Source of the DNA: Flavobacterium sp. TAB 87
GTDB taxonomy: Bacteria; Bacteroidota; Bacteroidia; Flavobacteriales; Flavobacteriaceae
DNA length: 64,000 bases
Assembly (NCBI RefSeq): GCF_001529295.1
Contig: NZ_LLWK01000038.1
Location: forward strand, 744,001 to 808,000
Direction of reading: 5' to 3'
Notes under the pieces: generated by a model
Database searches by the model: none
What the model saw: the letters and a program-made list of their open reading frames with translations, nothing else
Told to the model about the DNA's origin: nothing
In this document: piece by piece, positions 1-10,828 of the stretch
Layout of the letters: every line of letters begins with the position of its first letter
Position numbering within the stretch: the stretch's first letter is position 1
Position numbers and translations under genes: made by a program

Positions 1-1950
1 CAAAACGGAATCGCGGTCATTTTAGATGTGGCTTTAAATCATGCTTTTGGTCGCAATCCGATGGTTCGTATGTGGATGAACGATCCTGATGGTGATGGTT
101 TTGGTTCGCCAACAACAGAAAATCCATATTTTAATACTGTAGCAAAACACACGTATAATGTAGGCGAAGATTTCAATCACCAATCTCCTAGAACTCAAAA
201 TTATGTTCAACGTGTAATTAAACAATGGGTTCAAGAATATAAAATTGATGGATTTCGTTGGGATTTAACCAAAGGATTTACGCAAAATTGTACGGCTGCC
301 GATGAAAGTTGCACCAATTCCTATCAGCAAGATAGAGTAGATGTGCTGAAATTGTATGCTGATTATTCTTGGAGTTTAGATCCAACACATTACGCTATTT
401 TCGAACATTTAGGAAGTGCTACCGAAGAACAACAATGGGCAAATTATCGAATTGCCGAGACTCCAAGTAAGGGAGTGATGATGTGGGGGAACATGAATAA
501 TGAGTACGGAAAACTTGCAAAAGGATACGCAGGAAACATTTCAGGAATGACTAATACGAGTCGTGGTTTTACTGCGAATAGACTAATTGGATATCCCGAA
601 AGTCATGACGAAGAACGCTTGATGTATTATGCTAAAAAAGACGGCAATAGTTCCAATGCTTCCCATAACGTCAAAGATCTCAATATTGGTTTGTCTCGAA
701 TGTCAGCAATAGGAGCGGTTTCATTATTGATTCCGGGTCCAAAAATGATTTGGCATTTTGGAGATTTAGGTTGGGATACTTCCATCTTTTCTTGCAATAA
801 CGGCACTGTAAATGATAATTCGGCAGCTTTGCCTGGAGATTGTAAATTAGACACCAAGCCGCAGCCACAATGGACAAATAATTGGTTGGCAGATACCAAT
901 AGAAGCGCTGTTCATAAAAATTGGTCTAATATGATCGCTTTAAAAACAACAGAGCCTGTGTTTTTAGGTACAGCTACCGTTGCAAATAGCAGTTCTTTAC
1001 TGCCTAATATAAAAATTACCAACAACAACTTAGTAGCGACAGCACTAAAAGATGTCTTGGTACTAGCTAATTTTGATGTAACCAATAAAGAAGTAGTTAC
1101 AGGTTTTCCATATGTAGGAACTTGGTACAATTTAATGGATAATAAGGCGCTGATTGTAACCGATTTAAACATGACCGTTGCCATTCCAGCTGGAGGATTT
1201 AGAGTTTTTGGAAACCAGAAAACAAGCTTGGATTTTAGTACGCCCAATTTTTCTTTACCCAAAAATAATTTTACCATTGAATCAAAAGGAGAATCGTGCC
1301 TCAATAAAAACAACGGTTCGATAAGTGTCTCTGCCTTAGAAGCTCACAAGTATACAGCTACACTAAATGGAGCATCTTATTCTTTTGTAAATAATACATT
1401 TTCAGTAGATGGCTTAGCTCCCAATGTCTATTCGCTATGCATTGGTGTCGAAGGCGAATCCTACGAGCAATGCTACACAATCACTATTCAAAAAGGAGCT
1501 ACGATTACTGGAAAGTCTTCTGTTGTTGCCGACAAAGTAGTGATCGAAATTTTTGAGGGTACTGCTCCATTTCAAATTTCAATAAACGGATCAGAGCAGT
1601 TTGAAACTAGTAATTCGTCTTTTCTGGTTGCGGTCGAGAAAGGAGATTTAATAGAGGTAAAAACAGCTAAAGCCTGTGAAGGTGTTTTTTCAAAAAGTAT
1701 AGATACATGGTCAAAAGAAGTAAAGTTATTTCCAAATCCTACCTCTGGAAGTTTTGAAGTTTCGGTTACTACTTCAGAACGAGAAGTGGAAATTGGAATT
1801 TATAATACTGCTGGAACACTTCTTTCAAAAAAAATGTATCCTGTGGCTAATAACAAAATACAGATGAATTTAGATAACCAATCCGCAGGAATCTATTTCG
1901 TTAAAATAGAGTTGGACACTCCGTCAATAGTAAAAATCATAAAAAAGTAG
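1..1950 (+). CDS. Secreted GH13 alpha-amylase with T9SS sorting domain (5' partial)
   Basis: The reading frame is open from base 1, so the start lies outside the window. The first codons already encode GH13 region I (DVALNH). Region II, GFRWDLTKG, places the nucleophile Asp at 262-264. The acid/base Glu in AIFEHLG is at 403-405 and the transition-state Asp in ESHDEE at 607-609, so the catalytic trio is intact. The (beta/alpha)8 barrel ends near base 1200. About 170 residues of beta-rich linker follow, then a type A T9SS C-terminal domain (KLFPNPTSG near 1728, ending IVKIIKK). That tail predicts export across the outer membrane by the type IX system. Family knowledge says such enzymes cut alpha-1,4 glucans. 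The next gene begins 2 bp downstream and is probably co-transcribed. The exact specificity (amylase or neopullulanase) is not decided here. Confidence 0.95.
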   Translation, partial: QNGIAVILDVALNHAFGRNPMVRMWMNDPDGDGFGSPTTENPYFNTVAKHTYNVGEDFNHQSPRTQNYVQRVIKQWVQEYKIDGFRWDLTKGFTQNCTAADESCTNSYQQDRVDVLKLYADYSWSLDPTHYAIFEHLGSATEEQQWANYRIAETPSKGVMMWGNMNNEYGKLAKGYAGNISGMTNTSRGFTANRLIGYPESHDEERLMYYAKKDGNSSNASHNVKDLNIGLSRMSAIGAVSLLIPGPKMIWHFGDLGWDTSIFSCNNGTVNDNSAALPGDCKLDTKPQPQWTNNWLADTNRSAVHKNWSNMIALKTTEPVFLGTATVANSSSLLPNIKITNNNLVATALKDVLVLANFDVTNKEVVTGFPYVGTWYNLMDNKALIVTDLNMTVAIPAGGFRVFGNQKTSLDFSTPNFSLPKNNFTIESKGESCLNKNNGSISVSALEAHKYTATLNGASYSFVNNTFSVDGLAPNVYSLCIGVEGESYEQCYTITIQKGATITGKSSVVADKVVIEIFEGTAPFQISINGSEQFETSNSSFLVAVEKGDLIEVKTAKACEGVFSKSIDTWSKEVKLFPNPTSGSFEVSVTTSEREVEIGIYNTAGTLLSKKMYPVANNKIQMNLDNQSAGIYFVKIELDTPSIVKIIKK

Positions 1951-2781: not shown

Positions 2782-3609
2782 ATGGAACAATTGAAACATG
2801 CGATCAATGAAGATTACCTCAAGAAAGTAGATGCCGATAAAAAAAGTATTTATTGCCACCACGATCTTATGGGAGAATTATTTGTTCCGACTCACCAACA
2901 CCTAAAAGCGCAACTGCTCTATACCGAAGGAGATGTGGTTTTTGTGATTACCGATTCCAAATCTTATTTTTTGCCTGCTCGTCATTTTATATGGCTTCCA
3001 AGTGGTGTAGCGCACAGTATTCATCCTAAATCGGGAAAAGTAATTATGCGAAATTTGTATTTTCCTACCGAAGCAAATGAAGATGTATTTTACCAAATAG
3101 AAGGTATTTATCCCGTTAATGATTTACTACTACAAATGATGCTTTTTACCAATAGATGGAGCGGCGATCTAAAAAAGGGAACCGCAAATTTTGTTATCGC
3201 AAGCGGTATCAAAGCAATTCTTCCGCAACTTTGCCTGCGTAATTTACCTTTAGAGTTGCCAAAAGCCAAAGATGAACGCTTGAGTAAAATTTTAAAATTT
3301 ATCGATAACTCAATAGGAGAGCCTATTTTGTTTACTCGAGTTGCAGAGCAGTTCGGTTATAGCGAACGCTCTTTGTATCGCTTGTTTCAGAACGATTTGG
3401 GCATGTCTTTTATGCAATATTATACCATAAGGAGAATTATTAAAGCAATCGAATTATTGCTAGACAGAAAGCTTTCTATAAAAGAAATTGCCGAAAAAGT
3501 AGGCTACAGTAGTGTGCCGACTTTTAGTAATACTTTTTATAAAATACTACGACAACGCCCCTCTGATTATCTAAATCAAACGGGAATTCTAGAGCAATCA
3601 GTAGATTGA
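2782..3609 (+). CDS. AraC-family transcriptional regulator with N-terminal cupin
   Basis: An open frame begins at a TTG at 2749, but the first ATG at 2782 is the more likely start and gives 275 residues. The N-terminal half is a cupin-like sensor fold (PTHQHLKAQLLY, then LPSGVAHSIHP). The C-terminal ~100 residues carry the two helix-turn-helix units of the AraC/XylS family (VAEQFGYSERSLYRLFQ, then IKEIAEKVGYSSVPTFSNTF). It sits on the same strand 138 bp upstream of a TolC-HlyD-MFS operon. It is therefore the obvious candidate to control that efflux operon in response to a small molecule, but the inducer cannot be read from sequence. Confidence 0.9.
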   Translation: MEQLKHAINEDYLKKVDADKKSIYCHHDLMGELFVPTHQHLKAQLLYTEGDVVFVITDSKSYFLPARHFIWLPSGVAHSIHPKSGKVIMRNLYFPTEANEDVFYQIEGIYPVNDLLLQMMLFTNRWSGDLKKGTANFVIASGIKAILPQLCLRNLPLELPKAKDERLSKILKFIDNSIGEPILFTRVAEQFGYSERSLYRLFQNDLGMSFMQYYTIRRIIKAIELLLDRKLSIKEIAEKVGYSSVPTFSNTFYKILRQRPSDYLNQTGILEQSVD

Positions 3610-3747
3610 TTTCGTCGTAGAGATGACTGTAGAGTAGGACCGATATCGTTTTTTACGAATGTCCGAAATGAATACGATGTTGTCTTTTTAAGATAATCAG
3701 TCAATACAAAAAATGTAAGAACTTTGCATCTCAATTTATTTGATGCA

Positions 3748-5109
3748 ATGATAATACCTAAAAAAAGTACGCTCTTGACAGATCCATTTTTTAAAAAAAT
3801 GCTTCTTGTCCTTGTTTTATTTGGCCTAAATTCTTTAAAAGCGCAGCAAAATAATTTCTTATCACTTCGAGAAGCGTTGCAGATCGCCAAAGAAAATAAT
3901 CTATCCATTCTGAAATCACAATTAGATATACATCTTTTAGAGGAAAATGTAAAAGAAAGTAAAGAACTCCGTTTGCCCGATGTTGAAATTAGTGGCGGGT
4001 ATTCTCGTATTTCAAATTTGACTCAATTTAAAAGTAGTTTTATGAAAGAAAAGGAAGTTGTACACACCATTCCTGAAATGTATGATCTTAAAACCGACTT
4101 TAGAATGCCTCTTTATGCTGGTAATAAAATTAATAATGCGATTGAAATTGCCAAACAACAGGTTGAAATTGCTGGAATTACTAAAGAGAAAGTCGAAAAT
4201 GATGTTCAGCTACTGGTTATTTCGACCTATTTAGAAATTTATAAATTGAGGGAACTTCAGAAAATTATCGAGGAAAACATCAAAGAAGAACAAAATCGGC
4301 TGAAAGAAGTGCACTCCCTACAAAAGCACGGAACCGTTACCAAAAATGAGGTGCTACGTGCAGAATTACAGCTGACCGATCGTGAATTGACCGCATTAAA
4401 CAATTCGAAGAATATTCAAATTTTACTGCACGATTTTAAAACCTTATTGCAATTGCCCGAAGAACAAGAAATTAGTGTTGACAGCAGTGCAATTATAAAC
4501 GAAAATAAAGTTGATCCGTACGATTTGTATTTGAGCCGCGCTTTGAATAACGAAGACATTCGAATTGCGAATCAACAAGTGAATATTAGAAAAACAGAAA
4601 TGAATTTGATTAAAGGGAATTATTATCCGAGCATTAATTTTTTTGGAAATTATGCTCTAAAATATCCCAATTATATGTTTTTTCCGCCAGAACCATATTT
4701 GTATAGTTTAGGTCAAATTGGTATAGAAGCTCGTTTTGATCTTTCGGAACTGTATAAAAATAAGACTAAAATGCACATAGCGGATACAAAATTAGAATGG
4801 CAAAAAATGGAAACTAAAATTGTAAAAGATAAAGTACAAGATGAGTTGTATAAAAACCACGTGCATTATCAAGAAGCTATAGAGACGTTTAAGGTGGTTG
4901 ATAAATCGTTAGAGTTAGCAGAGGAGAATTACCGCATCGTCAAAGTAAAATACCTCAATCAGTTGGTTTTAATAACCGAAATGGTCGATGCAGACAATTC
5001 ATTATTGCAAGCCAGATACAGTAAAATTGCCACTCGAATCGATGCAGCAATGAAGCATTATAAATTGCTCCATACCGCAGGTTTATTAAAAGAAGAATTT
5101 AAATTATAA
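3748..5109 (+). CDS. TolC-family outer membrane efflux protein
   Basis: The protein has 453 residues if started at the ATG at 3748. An upstream TTG (3724) and an internal ATG (3799) are alternatives; 3748 keeps the basic KK in front of the hydrophobic signal core (MLLVLVLFGL) that ends near LKAQ. The mature protein shows the long alternating coiled-coil pattern of TolC (LREALQIAKENNLSILK; ENVKESKELRLPDVEISGG) and two OEP repeats. It should form the outer-membrane duct of a tripartite pump. The membrane-fusion gene starts 21 bp downstream, and the operon continues into an inner-membrane MFS carrier. Confidence 0.92.
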   Translation: MIIPKKSTLLTDPFFKKMLLVLVLFGLNSLKAQQNNFLSLREALQIAKENNLSILKSQLDIHLLEENVKESKELRLPDVEISGGYSRISNLTQFKSSFMKEKEVVHTIPEMYDLKTDFRMPLYAGNKINNAIEIAKQQVEIAGITKEKVENDVQLLVISTYLEIYKLRELQKIIEENIKEEQNRLKEVHSLQKHGTVTKNEVLRAELQLTDRELTALNNSKNIQILLHDFKTLLQLPEEQEISVDSSAIINENKVDPYDLYLSRALNNEDIRIANQQVNIRKTEMNLIKGNYYPSINFFGNYALKYPNYMFFPPEPYLYSLGQIGIEARFDLSELYKNKTKMHIADTKLEWQKMETKIVKDKVQDELYKNHVHYQEAIETFKVVDKSLELAEENYRIVKVKYLNQLVLITEMVDADNSLLQARYSKIATRIDAAMKHYKLLHTAGLLKEEFKL

Positions 5110-5130
5110 TAAAAACACGAGATACATCCA

Positions 5131-6177
5131 ATGACAAATAAAAGTAATAAAACAAATCATATTTTTCACGTTTTTGTAAAATTAATCGCGCTACTGCTCA
5201 TAGCAAGCGGAATTATTTTGGGGATTTGGTTTTATATTTTTAATGCCAATCACGAAGAAACCAACGACGCCCAAATTGAGCAATATGTAACCCCAATTAT
5301 GTCCAGAATTACGGGTTATGTACAAGAAGTTCGTTACGAAGAAAATCAATTTATACATCAGGGAGATACGTTGTTAGTGATCGACAATCGCGAATATAAA
5401 GCTAAGTTAGAGGTGGCTTTGGCCGATGTAAATTTAGCGAAACAAAATACGATCGTAGCCCAAAAAAATGTGGCGACCACAGCGGGTAGTACTGCAATTG
5501 GTGAGTCACAGTTAAAAGCGGCTCAAACTAATCTTTTTAAAACGAAGTTGGAGTTTCAGCGTTACACAGCTTTGTTGGCCGAAGATGCGGCAACAGAGCA
5601 ACAAGTAGAAAAAGTAAATGCCGATTATGAAGCAGCTCAAGCACACTATCAAGAGATGAAAGACCGAATTCGATTGGCTAATTTGAGCACATCGCAAGCA
5701 GCTGCGAATGTGCCTTCCGTACAAACATTAATTCAGGCAAAGCAAGCGGTCGCAGATCATGCCGCACTCTTTTTCTCGTACACAATAATAACAGCTCCGT
5801 ATGACGGTTGGGTTGGTAAAAGAACGATTCAACGCGGACAGTTAATTAAAGAAGGGCAAACTGTAGTGTCTATAGTAAGCAAAGAGAAATGGATTACAGC
5901 TAATTTTAAAGAAACGCAATTGCAATATTTGAAGGTGGGACAAGAAGTAAATGTGGAAGTCGACGCAATGAGTGGAGTTAGTTATGTCGGAACCATCAGT
6001 AGTATTTCACCTGCTAGTGGTGCACGTTTTTCGCTACTTCCGCCAGATAATGCGACAGGTAATTTTGTAAAAATTGAACAGCGAATTCCAGTAAAAATTA
6101 AACTTAAAGAAATGAATAAGCAGTCCGATTTTTTGAGAGCAGGCATGAACGTAAAAGTCATCGCAGAAGATCGTTAG
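5131..6177 (+). CDS. HlyD/EmrA-like membrane-fusion protein
   Basis: This 348-residue protein has one N-terminal membrane span at about residues 12-36. A lipoyl-like hairpin half follows (NDAQIEQYVTPIMSRITGYV, residues 45-64), then an alpha-helical hairpin rich in Ala and Gln at about 95-200. The second lipoyl half (TAPYDGWVGKRTIQRGQ) and a beta-barrel complete it. The order matches EmrA-type adaptors that bridge an MFS pump to TolC. It lies between the TolC homologue (21 bp gap) and the MFS gene (1 bp gap), so the three parts of one pump are encoded together. Confidence 0.93.
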   Translation: MTNKSNKTNHIFHVFVKLIALLLIASGIILGIWFYIFNANHEETNDAQIEQYVTPIMSRITGYVQEVRYEENQFIHQGDTLLVIDNREYKAKLEVALADVNLAKQNTIVAQKNVATTAGSTAIGESQLKAAQTNLFKTKLEFQRYTALLAEDAATEQQVEKVNADYEAAQAHYQEMKDRIRLANLSTSQAAANVPSVQTLIQAKQAVADHAALFFSYTIITAPYDGWVGKRTIQRGQLIKEGQTVVSIVSKEKWITANFKETQLQYLKVGQEVNVEVDAMSGVSYVGTISSISPASGARFSLLPPDNATGNFVKIEQRIPVKIKLKEMNKQSDFLRAGMNVKVIAEDR

Positions 6178-6178
6178 T

Positions 6179-7762
6179 ATGAATAATCAAAGTGTTTTTA
6201 AATCATGGGTTCCCAATTGGGCGATTATTGTAATTTTATTTGTTTGCTTGCTGCAATCGATGATTTTATTAGGAGTATATACGTCGAACGTGGCGTATGC
6301 AGCCAGTTTTTTAGACATAGAGCCCGAAGATCTGCAATTTGCAATGTCTGTAACTTACGGCACGCTATTAGCCACGATTTTGATAGAAAACAGATTCTCT
6401 AGTTTCTTTCCTGCAAAAAATTACTTGATGGCGATTTATTCGCTAATTGCGATCACGATTATTTCATCTTCTTACACTCATAATTTTGCTTTATTTCTTT
6501 TATTACGAATGATCGAAGGGATGTTAATGGCGTTACCCGCACTTACCATTCGACAGTTATTAATCGAGCGTTTTCATAGCAAAAATGCTATTGTAATTGG
6601 CTTTTCATTTTACTACGGTTCTTTGTTATTATCTACGCCTTTCATAATGAATATTGGGGTTTGGTTTCTGGATAATTACGATTGGAAATATATGTTGTAT
6701 GTTTCGGGTATGTTGCAAGTTCTGAATGTTTTTTTAATTCTGATAACATTTAGAGGGCATCGAATTACAAAGAAAATTCCATTGTATCAAATCGATTGGG
6801 TCAGTTATGTTTTGGTATTGACTGCTATTTTATCTGGCGCGTATTTTTTTGTATATGCCGAAAAGCTGTACTGGTTCGACTCGTCACAATTGGTTTTTAG
6901 TTTGATACTTTCGCTCCTCACTGCAGGTTTATTTGTTTTTAAAGAACTGTCGGTGAAAAGACCAAGTTTTAATTTTGAAGTTTTTAGGTACGCCAATTTG
7001 CGAATTGGTTTTTTACTTTTTTTTCTGTTTTATATCTGTAGAGCAACACTCAGTTTGTGTCATACGGCAATGTTTTCGATCTGGAACTGGGATCCGTCAA
7101 GAGTAGCAGCGGTACAATATCTCAACGGATTTGGAAACGTGATCGGACTTGTTTTGGCAGCTCTTTTTTTAATAAAGTCCGTGCCAACAAAATATATTTT
7201 TATAATGGGATTTTCACTTTTAGCACTTTTTCATTTTTGGTTTAGTTTTCTTTTTGTGCCAGATGTTGCTTTGTCAGATATTGTACTCCCTTATGTAATT
7301 CAAGGTGTTGGCGTCGGGTTATTGTTTGTCCCTTTGGTGTTTTTTACCACATCAACTGTTCCTCAAAAGTTAATTCCTTCTTCGGGAATTGCTGCTGTTT
7401 CCGCTCGTTTTTGGGGAAGCACCATCGGATTTTGTATTATGCAAAATGCAGTAGTTTTTTTGCAGAAGAAGCATTTTTTAAAATTCAGTCAATTTGTAAC
7501 TGCAAGTAGCATTAAAACTCAAGAAGCATTAGCAAAATCGGCTCAAGGTTTTATCGCTAAAGGATTTTCTGATGATGATGCTCATACGCTAGCTTTAAAA
7601 AAAATTTTGAACGCCGTGAACAAACAGTCAATTTTACTGAGTGATATGGAGATTTATACAGCAGTCGGTTATGGCTTAGTGCTTTTAATTGTTTTTATTT
7701 TCTTCAATCAACATTTAAAACAAAGCTTTAACTTCTTTAAAAAGAAACTCTGGATTGGTTAA
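6179..7762 (+). CDS. EmrB-like MFS transporter (DHA2 type)
   Basis: This 527-residue, very hydrophobic protein has a hydropathy pattern consistent with about 14 membrane spans. It begins at ATG 6179, directly after the TAG of the adaptor gene, which suggests translational coupling. Its position after TolC and EmrA homologues identifies it as the inner-membrane engine of a proton-driven tripartite drug or metabolite efflux pump. It is divergent from E. coli EmrB: I see no perfect copy of the classical MFS motif A, so the family assignment leans partly on context. Its last 48 bases overlap the 3' end of a convergent small gene on the other strand, which is unusual. Confidence 0.87.
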   Translation: MNNQSVFKSWVPNWAIIVILFVCLLQSMILLGVYTSNVAYAASFLDIEPEDLQFAMSVTYGTLLATILIENRFSSFFPAKNYLMAIYSLIAITIISSSYTHNFALFLLLRMIEGMLMALPALTIRQLLIERFHSKNAIVIGFSFYYGSLLLSTPFIMNIGVWFLDNYDWKYMLYVSGMLQVLNVFLILITFRGHRITKKIPLYQIDWVSYVLVLTAILSGAYFFVYAEKLYWFDSSQLVFSLILSLLTAGLFVFKELSVKRPSFNFEVFRYANLRIGFLLFFLFYICRATLSLCHTAMFSIWNWDPSRVAAVQYLNGFGNVIGLVLAALFLIKSVPTKYIFIMGFSLLALFHFWFSFLFVPDVALSDIVLPYVIQGVGVGLLFVPLVFFTTSTVPQKLIPSSGIAAVSARFWGSTIGFCIMQNAVVFLQKKHFLKFSQFVTASSIKTQEALAKSAQGFIAKGFSDDDAHTLALKKILNAVNKQSILLSDMEIYTAVGYGLVLLIVFIFFNQHLKQSFNFFKKKLWIG

Positions 7763-8008
7763 AATAGAGTCCTTCGCTCCTTTATAGATTTTCACTATCC
7801 TAATCTCTTTAATGGCGAAGTAACCAAAAACACCTAATCTGGATACTATAAGTGGCGTAAGAATAAATAATATAATGATTCCGAAAACCAAATCTTCTTG
7901 CTTATGAGAGAAGAATTTTGGCAAACCAAATTCGAATACACAAAAATAAGAGGCAGCAGCAGCTAATACCAACCAAAGGATTCCTAATATTCTTTTGACT
8001 TTAGTCAT
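7715..8008 (-). CDS. Small membrane protein, DUF6814-like, with extended C-terminus
   Basis: The frame encodes 97 residues starting at ATG 8006-8008. Residues 1-68 form two hydrophobic segments separated by a short loop (RILGILWLVLAAAASYF; VFGIIILFILTPLIV) and end in GVFGYFAIKE. This resembles the ~65-75 residue DUF6814 proteins that follow MFS carriers in Bacteroidetes. In members I remember, the protein stops just after this point. Here about 29 further residues run on to 7715 and overlap the 3' end of the convergent efflux MFS gene. A lost native stop, caused by rearrangement, is the simplest reading. It sits directly downstream of a decayed MFS gene, its likely former partner. The family name is from memory and should be checked. 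Confidence 0.6.
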   Translation of the reverse strand: MTKVKRILGILWLVLAAAASYFCVFEFGLPKFFSHKQEDLVFGIIILFILTPLIVSRLGVFGYFAIKEIRIVKIYKGAKDSILTNPEFLFKEVKALF

Positions 8009-8029
8009 GTTTACTACTTTTAAAAGTGG

Positions 8030-8600
8030 TTAATCGTTGGTCTTTTTAGTATTATCAATGTAAATCATTCCGATGACAAAACAAATAGAAGCAATTGTGA
8101 TTGAATACCAAAGCCCATTGGTCTGAAGCATTTATTGTAATTTCGGTACGACCGTCTCATTTCATTTTCTGACTAGAAGTTTCTGTAATTCTTTTGTATA
8201 TGGCAACTGTTTGATCAGTATAAATAATAGTAGTAGCGTAGCTTTGTTTGTTATCTATATTATTTGCTGAGGTAGCAAGAGTACATAATTCTGTTTTGTT
8301 GACCAAGTTTGTGGTTTCGTACTGTTTTGTTAAATAGGACGATATAGTAAAACGGCCAAGAGCATCCCGCTCATCATGAGGTACTTTCTTCCAATTTTAT
8401 CGCTTACTCAACCAAATAGCACGAAAAGAGGAGTGCCGAGTAACAACACAATTCCTAGTAATTCACCAAATAGTCGTACAACAAATCCGGCAGCAAAAGT
8501 GGTCAAAGTAGATAAAAAGCAGTAAAAGTAGGGAAAGAGTGCTCGTATTTTTCAATTCACTTTTTTCGTGTCTAATTGTTTACTGAAAAGCATAGTTGTA
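8030..8600 (-). pseudogene. Remnant of an MHS-type MFS transporter with large internal deletions
   Basis: Reading the minus strand gives three recognisable pieces of one MFS carrier. Near 8461-8503 is TFAAGFVVRLFGE, like the TFAAGFxVRPFG of metabolite:H+ symporters. At 8350-8437 is TPLFVLFG-stop-VSDKIGRKYLMM, a segment from the middle of such proteins; the stop TGA (8408-8410) stands where a Trp codon is expected. At 8030-8122 is NGLWYSITIASICFVIGMIYI plus a polar tail and TAA, a typical C-terminus. Between them lies a periplasmic-loop-like stretch in another frame, with its own TGA. About 170 codons remain of an expected ~500-550, so most spans are gone. The DUF6814-like gene immediately downstream fits the usual MFS-DUF6814 pair. 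Confidence 0.72.
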
Positions 8601-8657
8601 GAGCGGAAAATTTTAGTAGAAGAGAATGTATGTTTTTTACAAACTGTATAAAAACAA

Positions 8658-8683
8658 AAAACCCACTCGTTTGAGTGGGTTTT
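8658..8683 (-). terminator. Terminator of the tRNA-Phe transcript
   Basis: The inverted repeat AAACCCACTC / GAGTGGGTTT lies directly after the tRNA on the minus strand. It is followed in that direction by a T-rich tract (8648-8660 on the plus strand is A-rich). Confidence 0.82.
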
Positions 8684-8684
8684 G

Positions 8685-8757
8685 TGGTACCTCCAGGGTT
8701 CGAACCAGGGACACATGGATTTTCAGTCCATTGCTCTACCAACTGAGCTAAGGTACC
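8685..8757 (-). tRNA. tRNA-Phe (anticodon GAA)
   Basis: The 73-nt minus-strand sequence folds as a full cloverleaf. The acceptor arms are GGTACCT and AGGTACC with discriminator A, the D-arm is GCTC...GAGC, the anticodon arm is TGGAC/CTGAAAA/TCCA-like with anticodon GAA, and the T-arm has GGTTCGAACC. The CCA end is not encoded, because the acceptor is followed by CAAAA. It lies alone, with its own terminator, upstream of the divergently oriented coaX. Confidence 0.97.
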
Positions 8758-8856: not shown

Positions 8857-9591
8857 ATGATTTTAGCAATTGATGTGGGTAATACCCGAATTAAAGCAGC
8901 TGTTTTTGAGGATACTAGTCTTTTAGAAGTTTTTGTTTTTGACGCGATTGAGCTCGAAAAAAAAATTGAAAATATTTTAAAAAAATTTCGAAAGACTACA
9001 GTTTTGATGGTTGCTTCGGTTGGGAAAATAGAAAAACACGCTTTTTTGGCTTTCGAAAAACAACTCACCGTTCATTTTATCACACATAAGGATATTTTCC
9101 CCTTTCAAAACAAATACGAAACACCTACCACATTAGGAATTGATCGAATGGTATTGGCTGCTGGAGCTACTTTGTTATATCCAAAGCAAAATAGATTAGT
9201 GATCGATGCAGGTACTTGCGTGACCTACGATTTTATAGATGCGGAAGATAATTATCTAGGCGGCGCCATTGCGCCAGGTTTGCGACTGCGTTATGAAGCG
9301 CTACACAATTACACGGCAAGATTACCATTGTTGCACCTTGAAGAACCACAAAGTTTTATAGGAAATTCAACCAATCAATCGATTCATTCCGGAATAGTGA
9401 ACGGATTTATCTATGAGATAGATGGTTTTGTAGTCGAATATGCCACTTCTTTTTTAAATTTTATAATAATTTTAACGGGTGGAGATTCAGATTTTTTGGC
9501 TAAACGATTAAAAAATACCATATTTGCCAATTCAAATTTCCTTTTAGAAAGTTTGAATCAATTATATCTATACAAAATCAACAATGATTAA
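8857..9591 (+). CDS. coaX: Type III pantothenate kinase
   Basis: The true start is ATG 8857; the frame upstream overlaps the tRNA and is not coding. The 244-residue protein begins MILAIDVGNTRIKAA, the phosphate-binding DxGNT motif of the ASKHA fold. It continues with GIDRMVLAAGA and DAGTCVTYDFID, the GxDR and D-A-G-T motifs of CoaX, then GGAIAPGL and a C-terminal TGGD. It phosphorylates pantothenate with ATP in the first step of coenzyme A synthesis and is cytosolic. The next gene overlaps its stop by 8 bp, so coaX heads a co-transcribed envelope gene set. Confidence 0.97.
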   Translation: MILAIDVGNTRIKAAVFEDTSLLEVFVFDAIELEKKIENILKKFRKTTVLMVASVGKIEKHAFLAFEKQLTVHFITHKDIFPFQNKYETPTTLGIDRMVLAAGATLLYPKQNRLVIDAGTCVTYDFIDAEDNYLGGAIAPGLRLRYEALHNYTARLPLLHLEEPQSFIGNSTNQSIHSGIVNGFIYEIDGFVVEYATSFLNFIIILTGGDSDFLAKRLKNTIFANSNFLLESLNQLYLYKINND

Positions 9592-10828
9592 AAAAATTCT
9601 TATAGGCACTTTTTTGCTCGTGTCTCTTGTTTCTTTTGCTCAAGAAGGAACTTCTTCCCCTTATTCTTATTTTGGTATTGGTGATATTCGGTTCAAAGGA
9701 TCATTAGAAACACGCTCGATGGCTGGAGTAGGAGTAGAAATGGATAGTATTCACTTAAATATTCAGAATCCAGCGAGCTATTCTGCTTTAAAGTTAACCA
9801 CTTTTGGGGTGGGAGCCTCTTATTCAAGTACGACACTAAAAACAGATAAAGAAAGCGTGGGCACAAATCGATCTACTTTCGATTATTTAGCTGTTGGTGT
9901 TCCAATGGGTAAATTCGGAATGGCGTTTGGTTTGATTCCATATTCTTCAGTGGGATACCGCATCGAATCGATATCGAACGATCCAACAATCGCAAGTAAA
10001 AGAAACGATGGTTCTGGAGGATTAAGTAAAGTATTTTTAGGCCTTGGTTATATGATAAAACCGGGATTCTCTATAGGAGCTGATATTCAATATGGTTTTG
10101 GTAAAATAGAGTCGACTAGTTTAGAATTTATTCCGACTGTTCCAGTTGGAACGCGACAAAAAAATCGATCGGAATTATCTGGAGTTAATTTTAATGTGGG
10201 CGCCATGTACGAAACAAAAATTAACACCAAATTAAATTTGTACGGAAGCGCTAGTTACGGATTCGCTGCAAATCTTAATTCTGACAATATGCGTCAAATT
10301 TCAACTTTTGACTCTAATAACTTTATATTAGATAGTTTGCCTACAATGCGCTCGAAAGTCGGACTTAAAATTCCAGGAAAAATAAGTCTTGGTGCAGGTA
10401 TTGGTGAAAAAAGAAAATGGTTAATAGGTACGCAACTTACTTTTCAAGGAGCTTCAGATTTTGATGACAACTTGGGAACTGCGCCGTCTACAGATGTGAT
10501 TTATAAAAGCTATGCTAAATATGCCGTTGGAGGATATTATATTCCAAACTACAATTCATTTTCAAGCTATTTTGAAAGGATTGTTTACCGTGGAGGATTT
10601 AGATATGAGAAATCTGGATTAATTATTAATTCGGAAGATATTAACGATATCGCTCTTACCGTTGGAGCTGGATTTCCTATTACTGGAGTGTTCTCTAACG
10701 TTAATTTAGGATTAGAAGTAGGTAAAAAAGGAACTACTAACTCTGGATTGATACAAGAAAATTATTTTAATGTAAGTATCGGTTTTTCACTTAACGACAA
10801 GTGGTTTAGAAAGAGTAAATTTGATTAA
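9584..10828 (+). CDS. FadL-like outer-membrane beta-barrel protein
   Basis: This 414-residue protein has a signal peptide (MIKKILIGTFLLVSLVSFAQ). It then has SSPYSYFGIGDI and AGVGVEMDSIHLNIQNPAS, an N-terminal plug-like segment of the type seen in FadL/OmpP1 and PorV-like proteins (GMGGA...NPA). The rest alternates Gly/aromatic-rich strands such as GLGYMIKPGFSIGADIQYGF. The ATG overlaps the coaX stop by 8 bp. The protein should sit in the outer membrane. Whether it moves hydrophobic substrates or is a secretion accessory cannot be told from sequence. Its steady company with coaX and lptC suggests a conserved envelope role. Confidence 0.78.
   Translation: MIKKILIGTFLLVSLVSFAQEGTSSPYSYFGIGDIRFKGSLETRSMAGVGVEMDSIHLNIQNPASYSALKLTTFGVGASYSSTTLKTDKESVGTNRSTFDYLAVGVPMGKFGMAFGLIPYSSVGYRIESISNDPTIASKRNDGSGGLSKVFLGLGYMIKPGFSIGADIQYGFGKIESTSLEFIPTVPVGTRQKNRSELSGVNFNVGAMYETKINTKLNLYGSASYGFAANLNSDNMRQISTFDSNNFILDSLPTMRSKVGLKIPGKISLGAGIGEKRKWLIGTQLTFQGASDFDDNLGTAPSTDVIYKSYAKYAVGGYYIPNYNSFSSYFERIVYRGGFRYEKSGLIINSEDINDIALTVGAGFPITGVFSNVNLGLEVGKKGTTNSGLIQENYFNVSIGFSLNDKWFRKSKFD

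Follow-up and report, generated by a model that had tools for sequence, protein, structure and literature searches.

In the CrbS/R acetate system of Pseudomonas, the gene for a small DUF485 protein always shares an operon with that for ActP, the acetate carrier (PMC5715377). As a case study of a comparable association and of its breakdown, we consider a carrier of the metabolite:H+ symporter (MHS) type, belonging to the major facilitator superfamily (MFS), and a small protein of the family DUF6814 (PF20664), in Flavobacterium sp. TAB 87. The sequence analysed is a stretch of 64,000 nucleotides (nt), hereafter the window (contig NZ_LLWK01000038.1, positions 744,001 to 808,000), in which a short segment of the minus strand is almost certainly an MHS-type MFS carrier pseudogene that once formed a two-gene unit with the adjacent DUF6814 gene, itself now eroding too.

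As in the DUF485-ActP unit of Gammaproteobacteria (PMC5715377), genes encoding a histidine kinase, a response regulator and an acyl-CoA ligase-like protein are found near some MHS-DUF6814 pairs; unlike that unit, the carrier belongs to the MFS and not to the solute:sodium symporters (SSS), and the small protein belongs to another family, so that the relation is one of analogy and not of membership. A full-text search of one literature collection found no paper naming DUF6814 or PF20664. For L022, the intact carrier orthologue of F. agrisoli (498 amino acids, aa) that serves as our reference, the best NCBIfam model is TIGR00883 (2A0106 metabolite/H+ symporter; 369 bits, E 3e-110), at a score under the curated cut-off of 443.45 bits, while the Pfam cut-offs are exceeded for Sugar_tr (116.7 bits, cut-off 22.3) and MFS_1 (104.1 bits, cut-off 33.4). 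Because L022 scores below the cut-off of what is by far its best model, we name the carrier "MHS-type", and proton-coupled metabolite transport is a putative activity named by homology. Two things set this carrier apart from the family TIGR00883, a long variable loop in the orthologues (about aa 325-400) and the broken state of the window copy; from the DUF6814 family, the window copy of the small protein differs by the loss of a terminal G-[E/D]-Y motif and by a foreign tail of 30 aa.

Remains of the carrier gene

Using tblastn with 96 MHS proteins of at least 480 aa from related loci as queries, we recovered four collinear pieces of the carrier on the minus strand (Table 1). Against L022, pieces 1, 2, 3 and 4 score 46, 76, 45 and 52 bits, whereas the best chance match in 200 dinucleotide shuffles of positions 8027-8660 reached 26.9 bits (any match at E<=1 was seen in 80 of the 200). 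The preliminary description of this DNA, made from the letters and their reading frames, had proposed collinear pieces of an MHS-type carrier on this strand and suggested a protein search for MFS homology; the search and the shuffles bear the proposal out, except that three pieces had been counted where there are four, the additional one being the variable loop that follows "YRPIY". This piece 3 has about 32-37% identity to its intact counterparts, and the loop differs among intact MHS copies too. DNA comparison supports piece 1 (85.7% identity to F. agrisoli over 56 nt), piece 2, piece 4 and the start of piece 3. Intact relatives of the remnant measure about 1494 nt plus the stop codon, or about 498 aa; the remnant retains the SDKIGRK loop, and its final stop (8030-8032) coincides with the ending of intact MHS genes.

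The breakage can be followed along the gene. Pieces 1 and 2 are joined in frame across a loss of 210 codons, a number identical against all four relatives printed in the comparison, and a second deletion, estimated at about 220 nt, leads from piece 3 to piece 4 and changes the frame. In the related locus L063, TTGGTAT is present on either side of the site of this second deletion, and a deletion between short repeats would fit these copies. The loss of two large segments had already been recognised; that account was incomplete, as the gene start is largely lost too, most of codons 12-46 being absent from the remnant in a DNA comparison made by eye. Internal stops stand in piece 2 at 8408-8410 and 8330-8332 and in piece 3 at 8157-8159, the first of them being a TGA in place of the Trp of the FGWLSDKIG motif, exactly as had been read from the sequence. 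The in-frame joining of the first two pieces also stands; the further idea that deletion came before point decay depends on this single junction, which has a one-in-three chance of being in frame, so that the order of the two processes is not readable.

Where relatives have an intact orthologue, the window thus has collinear homologous pieces disrupted by deletions, stops and frameshifts, which is the picture of a pseudogene. No other MHS orthologue was found in the organism's own genome, where all three matches to the MHS query are fragments of the remnant.

Table 1. Features of the remnant, its partner gene and the syntenic anchors (window positions; aa numbering of the pieces follows L022; tblastn spans are those against L022)
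Feature	Position	Strand	Evidence
MHS-type MFS carrier gene, full extent of the remnant	8030..8593	(-)	tblastn, DNA matches to intact orthologues, synteny
Probable vestige of gene start; most of codons ~12-46 gone	8533..8593	(-)	by eye, without significant alignment
Piece 1, aa 51-69 (FLSTLTTFAAGFVVRLFG)	8462..8518	(-)	tblastn (8518-8462)
Piece 2, aa 279-324, in-frame fusion to piece 1	8327..8464	(-)	tblastn (8464-8327), DNA comparison
Piece 3, variable loop aa 325-400, other frame	8103..8327	(-)	tblastn (8327-8103)
Piece 4, aa 470-498 and ancestral stop codon	8030..8119	(-)	tblastn (8119-8033), DNA comparison
DUF6814 gene, reading frame of 97 aa; family-like over codons 1-66	7715..8008	(-)	PF20664 profile
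Aberrant 30-aa DUF6814 tail after frame slip	7715..7807	(-)	comparison with relatives
tRNA-Phe (GAA), upstream syntenic anchor	8685..8757	(-)	tRNA scan
coaX-like gene, syntenic anchor	8857..9591	(+)	synteny

The MHS-DUF6814 pair in relatives and its damaged copy

A scan of contigs with the window DUF6814 protein gave 80 loci, two with Sphingobacterium and one with [Flexibacter] in their titles and the others with Flavobacterium or Flavobacteriaceae. All 80 have an MHS match that covers at least 495 of the 498 query residues and ends less than 80 nt before DUF6814; both a porin-like gene (window 9584-10828) and a gene that is presumably coaX (type III pantothenate kinase) stand on the other side in opposite orientation in 63 of them, and tRNA-Phe was present in 18 of the 26 that were scanned for it. 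From these neighbour counts, porin-like gene, coaX, tRNA-Phe, MHS and DUF6814 form the common order, and the intact pair that was to be looked for at the syntenic site of related genomes is there in named Flavobacterium species. L063 has two tRNA-Phe genes upstream of its intact MHS gene.

Across the genus, PF20664 exceeds its cut-off in 101 of 199 Flavobacterium genomes, and an MHS orthologue (defined as a member of the high-scoring group with at least 65% identity and no stop inside) is likewise found in 101 of 199. Both genes occur together in 99 genomes, always with DUF6814 on the same strand and no more than 1500 nt downstream of MHS. MHS alone was seen only in G151 and G184, which were set aside because the match reaches the contig end, and a weak DUF6814 match in G176 (21.5 bits) fell below the cut-off and was dropped. 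Of 395 genomes sampled across the phylum, 112 have a PF20664 match above the cut-off, and MHS stands beside DUF6814 in all 30 of the best-scoring 30 loci of these 112 (22 of them outside the genus). The pairing is near-obligate, and the small gene beside the remnant, described beforehand as the carrier's usual partner, is indeed a DUF6814 gene (76.4 bits against PF20664, cut-off 25), present in one copy in the Flavobacterium sp. TAB 87 genome.

A DUF6814 gene without an uninterrupted MHS gene directly upstream is found in two of the 101 genomes: that of the window, where DUF6814 is not directly downstream of such a gene, and G119. In G119 (L135 2490-2720), at the same tRNA-Phe site, the MHS start survives as about 35 codons, which have a stop in place of a conserved Trp and run in frame into the last codons of DUF6814; the deletion is unlike that of the window. 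Two separate wrecks in which the small gene decays, taken with the pairing in 99 of 101 genomes, suggest that DUF6814 probably does not act independently of the MHS carrier.

The damage to the window DUF6814 gene is new relative to the preliminary description. After 66 family-like codons there is a change of frame near 7807, beyond which the gene stays open to a total of 97 aa; the neighbouring frame shows the remains of a normal ending with a presumed old stop at 7782-7784; the foreign tail is antisense to a convergent emrB-like gene and covers its last 48 nt (7715-7762). The DUF6814 proteins of 98 related loci, some of which share a genome, measure 71-83 aa and all 98 have, under a loose pattern, the terminal G-[E/D]-Y-type motif that is lost in the window copy. 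When the ending was compared directly in 84 loci, it read GEY in 78, GDY in 5 and NEY in 1; this ending is an observation of the present analysis, outside the Pfam definition of PF20664. An alignment with 79 other DUF6814 proteins (identical ones merged, L007 and L010 left out) shows that Gly57, invariant in the others, is changed in the window copy. Rates of nonsynonymous (pN) and synonymous (pS) difference were taken over 84 of the 98 loci, leaving out 14 without the QEDLVF/QDDLVF string at the expected place, and the median pN of the window gene lies above that of 78 of these 84. Such a rank could come from a relaxation of constraint or from divergence of the lineage.

Weighing the explanations

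The whole finding is ordinary pseudogene decay. In the course of events that we favour, the intact unit consisted of an MHS carrier and DUF6814, a protein with two hydrophobic segments; the carrier was destroyed in this lineage through the two large internal deletions, the loss of most of the N-terminus, the stops and the frame changes, and DUF6814, left without its carrier, is now eroding from its 3' end, the frame slip being observed and the loss of function presumed. Several observations weigh against this account. Piece 2 differs from L022 by 19 synonymous and 10 nonsynonymous changes and looks constrained. The window DUF6814 retains 23 of 25 strongly conserved core columns, and 7 of the 79 other proteins alter more than its two; over codons 1-66 its pN/pS is 0.157 against L022, with synonymous sites near saturation, and 0.216 as a median. 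Two upstream strings, TGTTAAAAAA (in 74 of the 80 relatives) and TATTCGTAAA (in 58 of the 80), are absent between 8009 and 8760, and since L022, the nearest orthologue by sequence, is without both and L063 without one, their absence, a point in favour of decay, argues weakly for a lost promoter. The constrained pieces and DUF6814 core mean that the decay is young relative to the divergence or that DUF6814 still does something. The latter case, a dead MHS gene beside a DUF6814 protein that functions with its new C-terminal tail, with another carrier or in another role, we consider unlikely: beyond the conserved columns and low pN/pS, it can draw on the retention of both hydrophobic segments (about residues 4-29 and 37-66) and on the open 97-aa frame, and it runs against the loss of a terminal motif kept in all related loci, the change of Gly57, the failure of the own-genome search to find a second MHS orthologue and the fact that both MHS-less genomes of the 101 are wrecks. 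The 3' frame slip and the missing second orthologue strengthen the earlier suggestion of a partner that probably no longer has a function, without proving it, as the first 66 codons look constrained. We read the window DUF6814 as recently orphaned and starting to decay, and not as long dead.

That an intact gene has been garbled by an assembly or sequencing error is exceedingly improbable. The case does come from a single genome, and no closely related genome was found among those compared; base-calling errors do not account for two large deletions together with the lost start, the several stops and the damage to the partner, the contig measures 1.01 Mb and its assembly is 99.98% complete, and G119 has another wreck at the same place. 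We found no support for the compact sequence being a conserved functional RNA or a new short gene, which we regard as highly improbable: stops interrupt the pieces, and Rfam at the gathering threshold returned tRNA only, for which reason the RNA was rejected. A DNA search of 398 genomes of the genus (152 with a match) gave, among the matches listed, none outside the own genome that extends further than a few bases across one or the other of the deletion junctions, and those from other genomes begin at or near the junctions. Relatives that keep the compact form as an RNA or a gene, the counter-case raised in the preliminary description, were thus found neither with Rfam nor among these matches.

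Neighbourhood and possible role of the intact pair

An efflux block resembling araC-tolC-emrA-emrB (window 2782-7762) lies directly against DUF6814, the emrB stop being 19 nt from the presumed old DUF6814 stop. EmrA and EmrB were identified with NCBIfam at scores below the cut-offs, and the first two genes are presumably araC and tolC. The distance between emrB and DUF6814, which are convergent, is 53-75 kb in eight relatives, G008, G065, G072, G098, G106, G119, G125 and G126, and about 30 kb in the other arrangement of G131. A deletion of about 60 kb between the two genes was considered and rejected, as 32 of the 45 intervening open reading frames (ORFs) of G008 are matched in the window or in the 60 kb to its left (two of these matches, o11 and o44, are weak and probably paralogous). 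With these 32 ORFs matched, insertion or relocation of the efflux block, probably between DUF6814 and an amylase-like gene, is the likelier history. At window 1-1230 and over about 17 kb to its left, the amylase-like gene is accompanied by a cluster of starch-use type, and both are conserved with G008; the cluster members are presumably susC/D-like, lacI-like, carrier and phosphorylase-like genes, so named from the sequence. On the own contig, at about 684000-705000, a block some 39-60 kb left of the window is inverted relative to G008.

By sequence, the nearest solved structures to the intact carrier are phosphate transporters (7sp5, E 1.2e-12). In the 98 related loci, an acetate-CoA ligase-like gene is nearby in at least 4, a membrane-kinase protein in at least 10 and an amylase-like match in at least 70 (directly after DUF6814 in G008), these being lower bounds given flanks of about 1.5 kb or less in L003-L020. 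In L190, where the MHS-DUF6814 pair is intact, DUF6814 is followed by proteins of 64 aa and 901 aa, the latter with HisKA and HATPase_c domains, then by a response regulator and by what we take by eye to be an acyl-CoA ligase-like protein, a set reminiscent of the CrbS/R acetate system. The membrane part of the 901-aa protein had been read as SLC5-like; Pfam (E<=0.001) gave no transporter domain, and HisKA and HATPase_c only. A search of the own genome for this membrane part gave no match, but it lacked a positive control and carries no weight here; elsewhere that genome does have an acs-like gene (85%). Judged by gene neighbourhoods in a minority of loci, the probable function of the intact pair is uptake of a small carboxylate, possibly acetate or propionate, against which it counts that most related loci, like that of the window, adjoin the amylase-like gene rather than acs. 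The near-obligate pairing and these neighbourhoods suggest that DUF6814 may be a small accessory subunit of the MHS carrier. To the broader proposal, that throughout Bacteroidota an MHS-type carboxylate carrier has DUF6814 as its obligate small subunit, the counterpart, in another carrier superfamily, of DUF485 with ActP, we would give an even chance.

The pseudogene itself is routine, and its worth is that of a natural experiment, in which the death of the carrier is accompanied by decay of the small protein in two separate wrecks. This case of decay shows the close tie between the MHS and DUF6814 genes, and the pairing result, a useful by-product, gives DUF6814, a family of unknown function, a direct and testable role.
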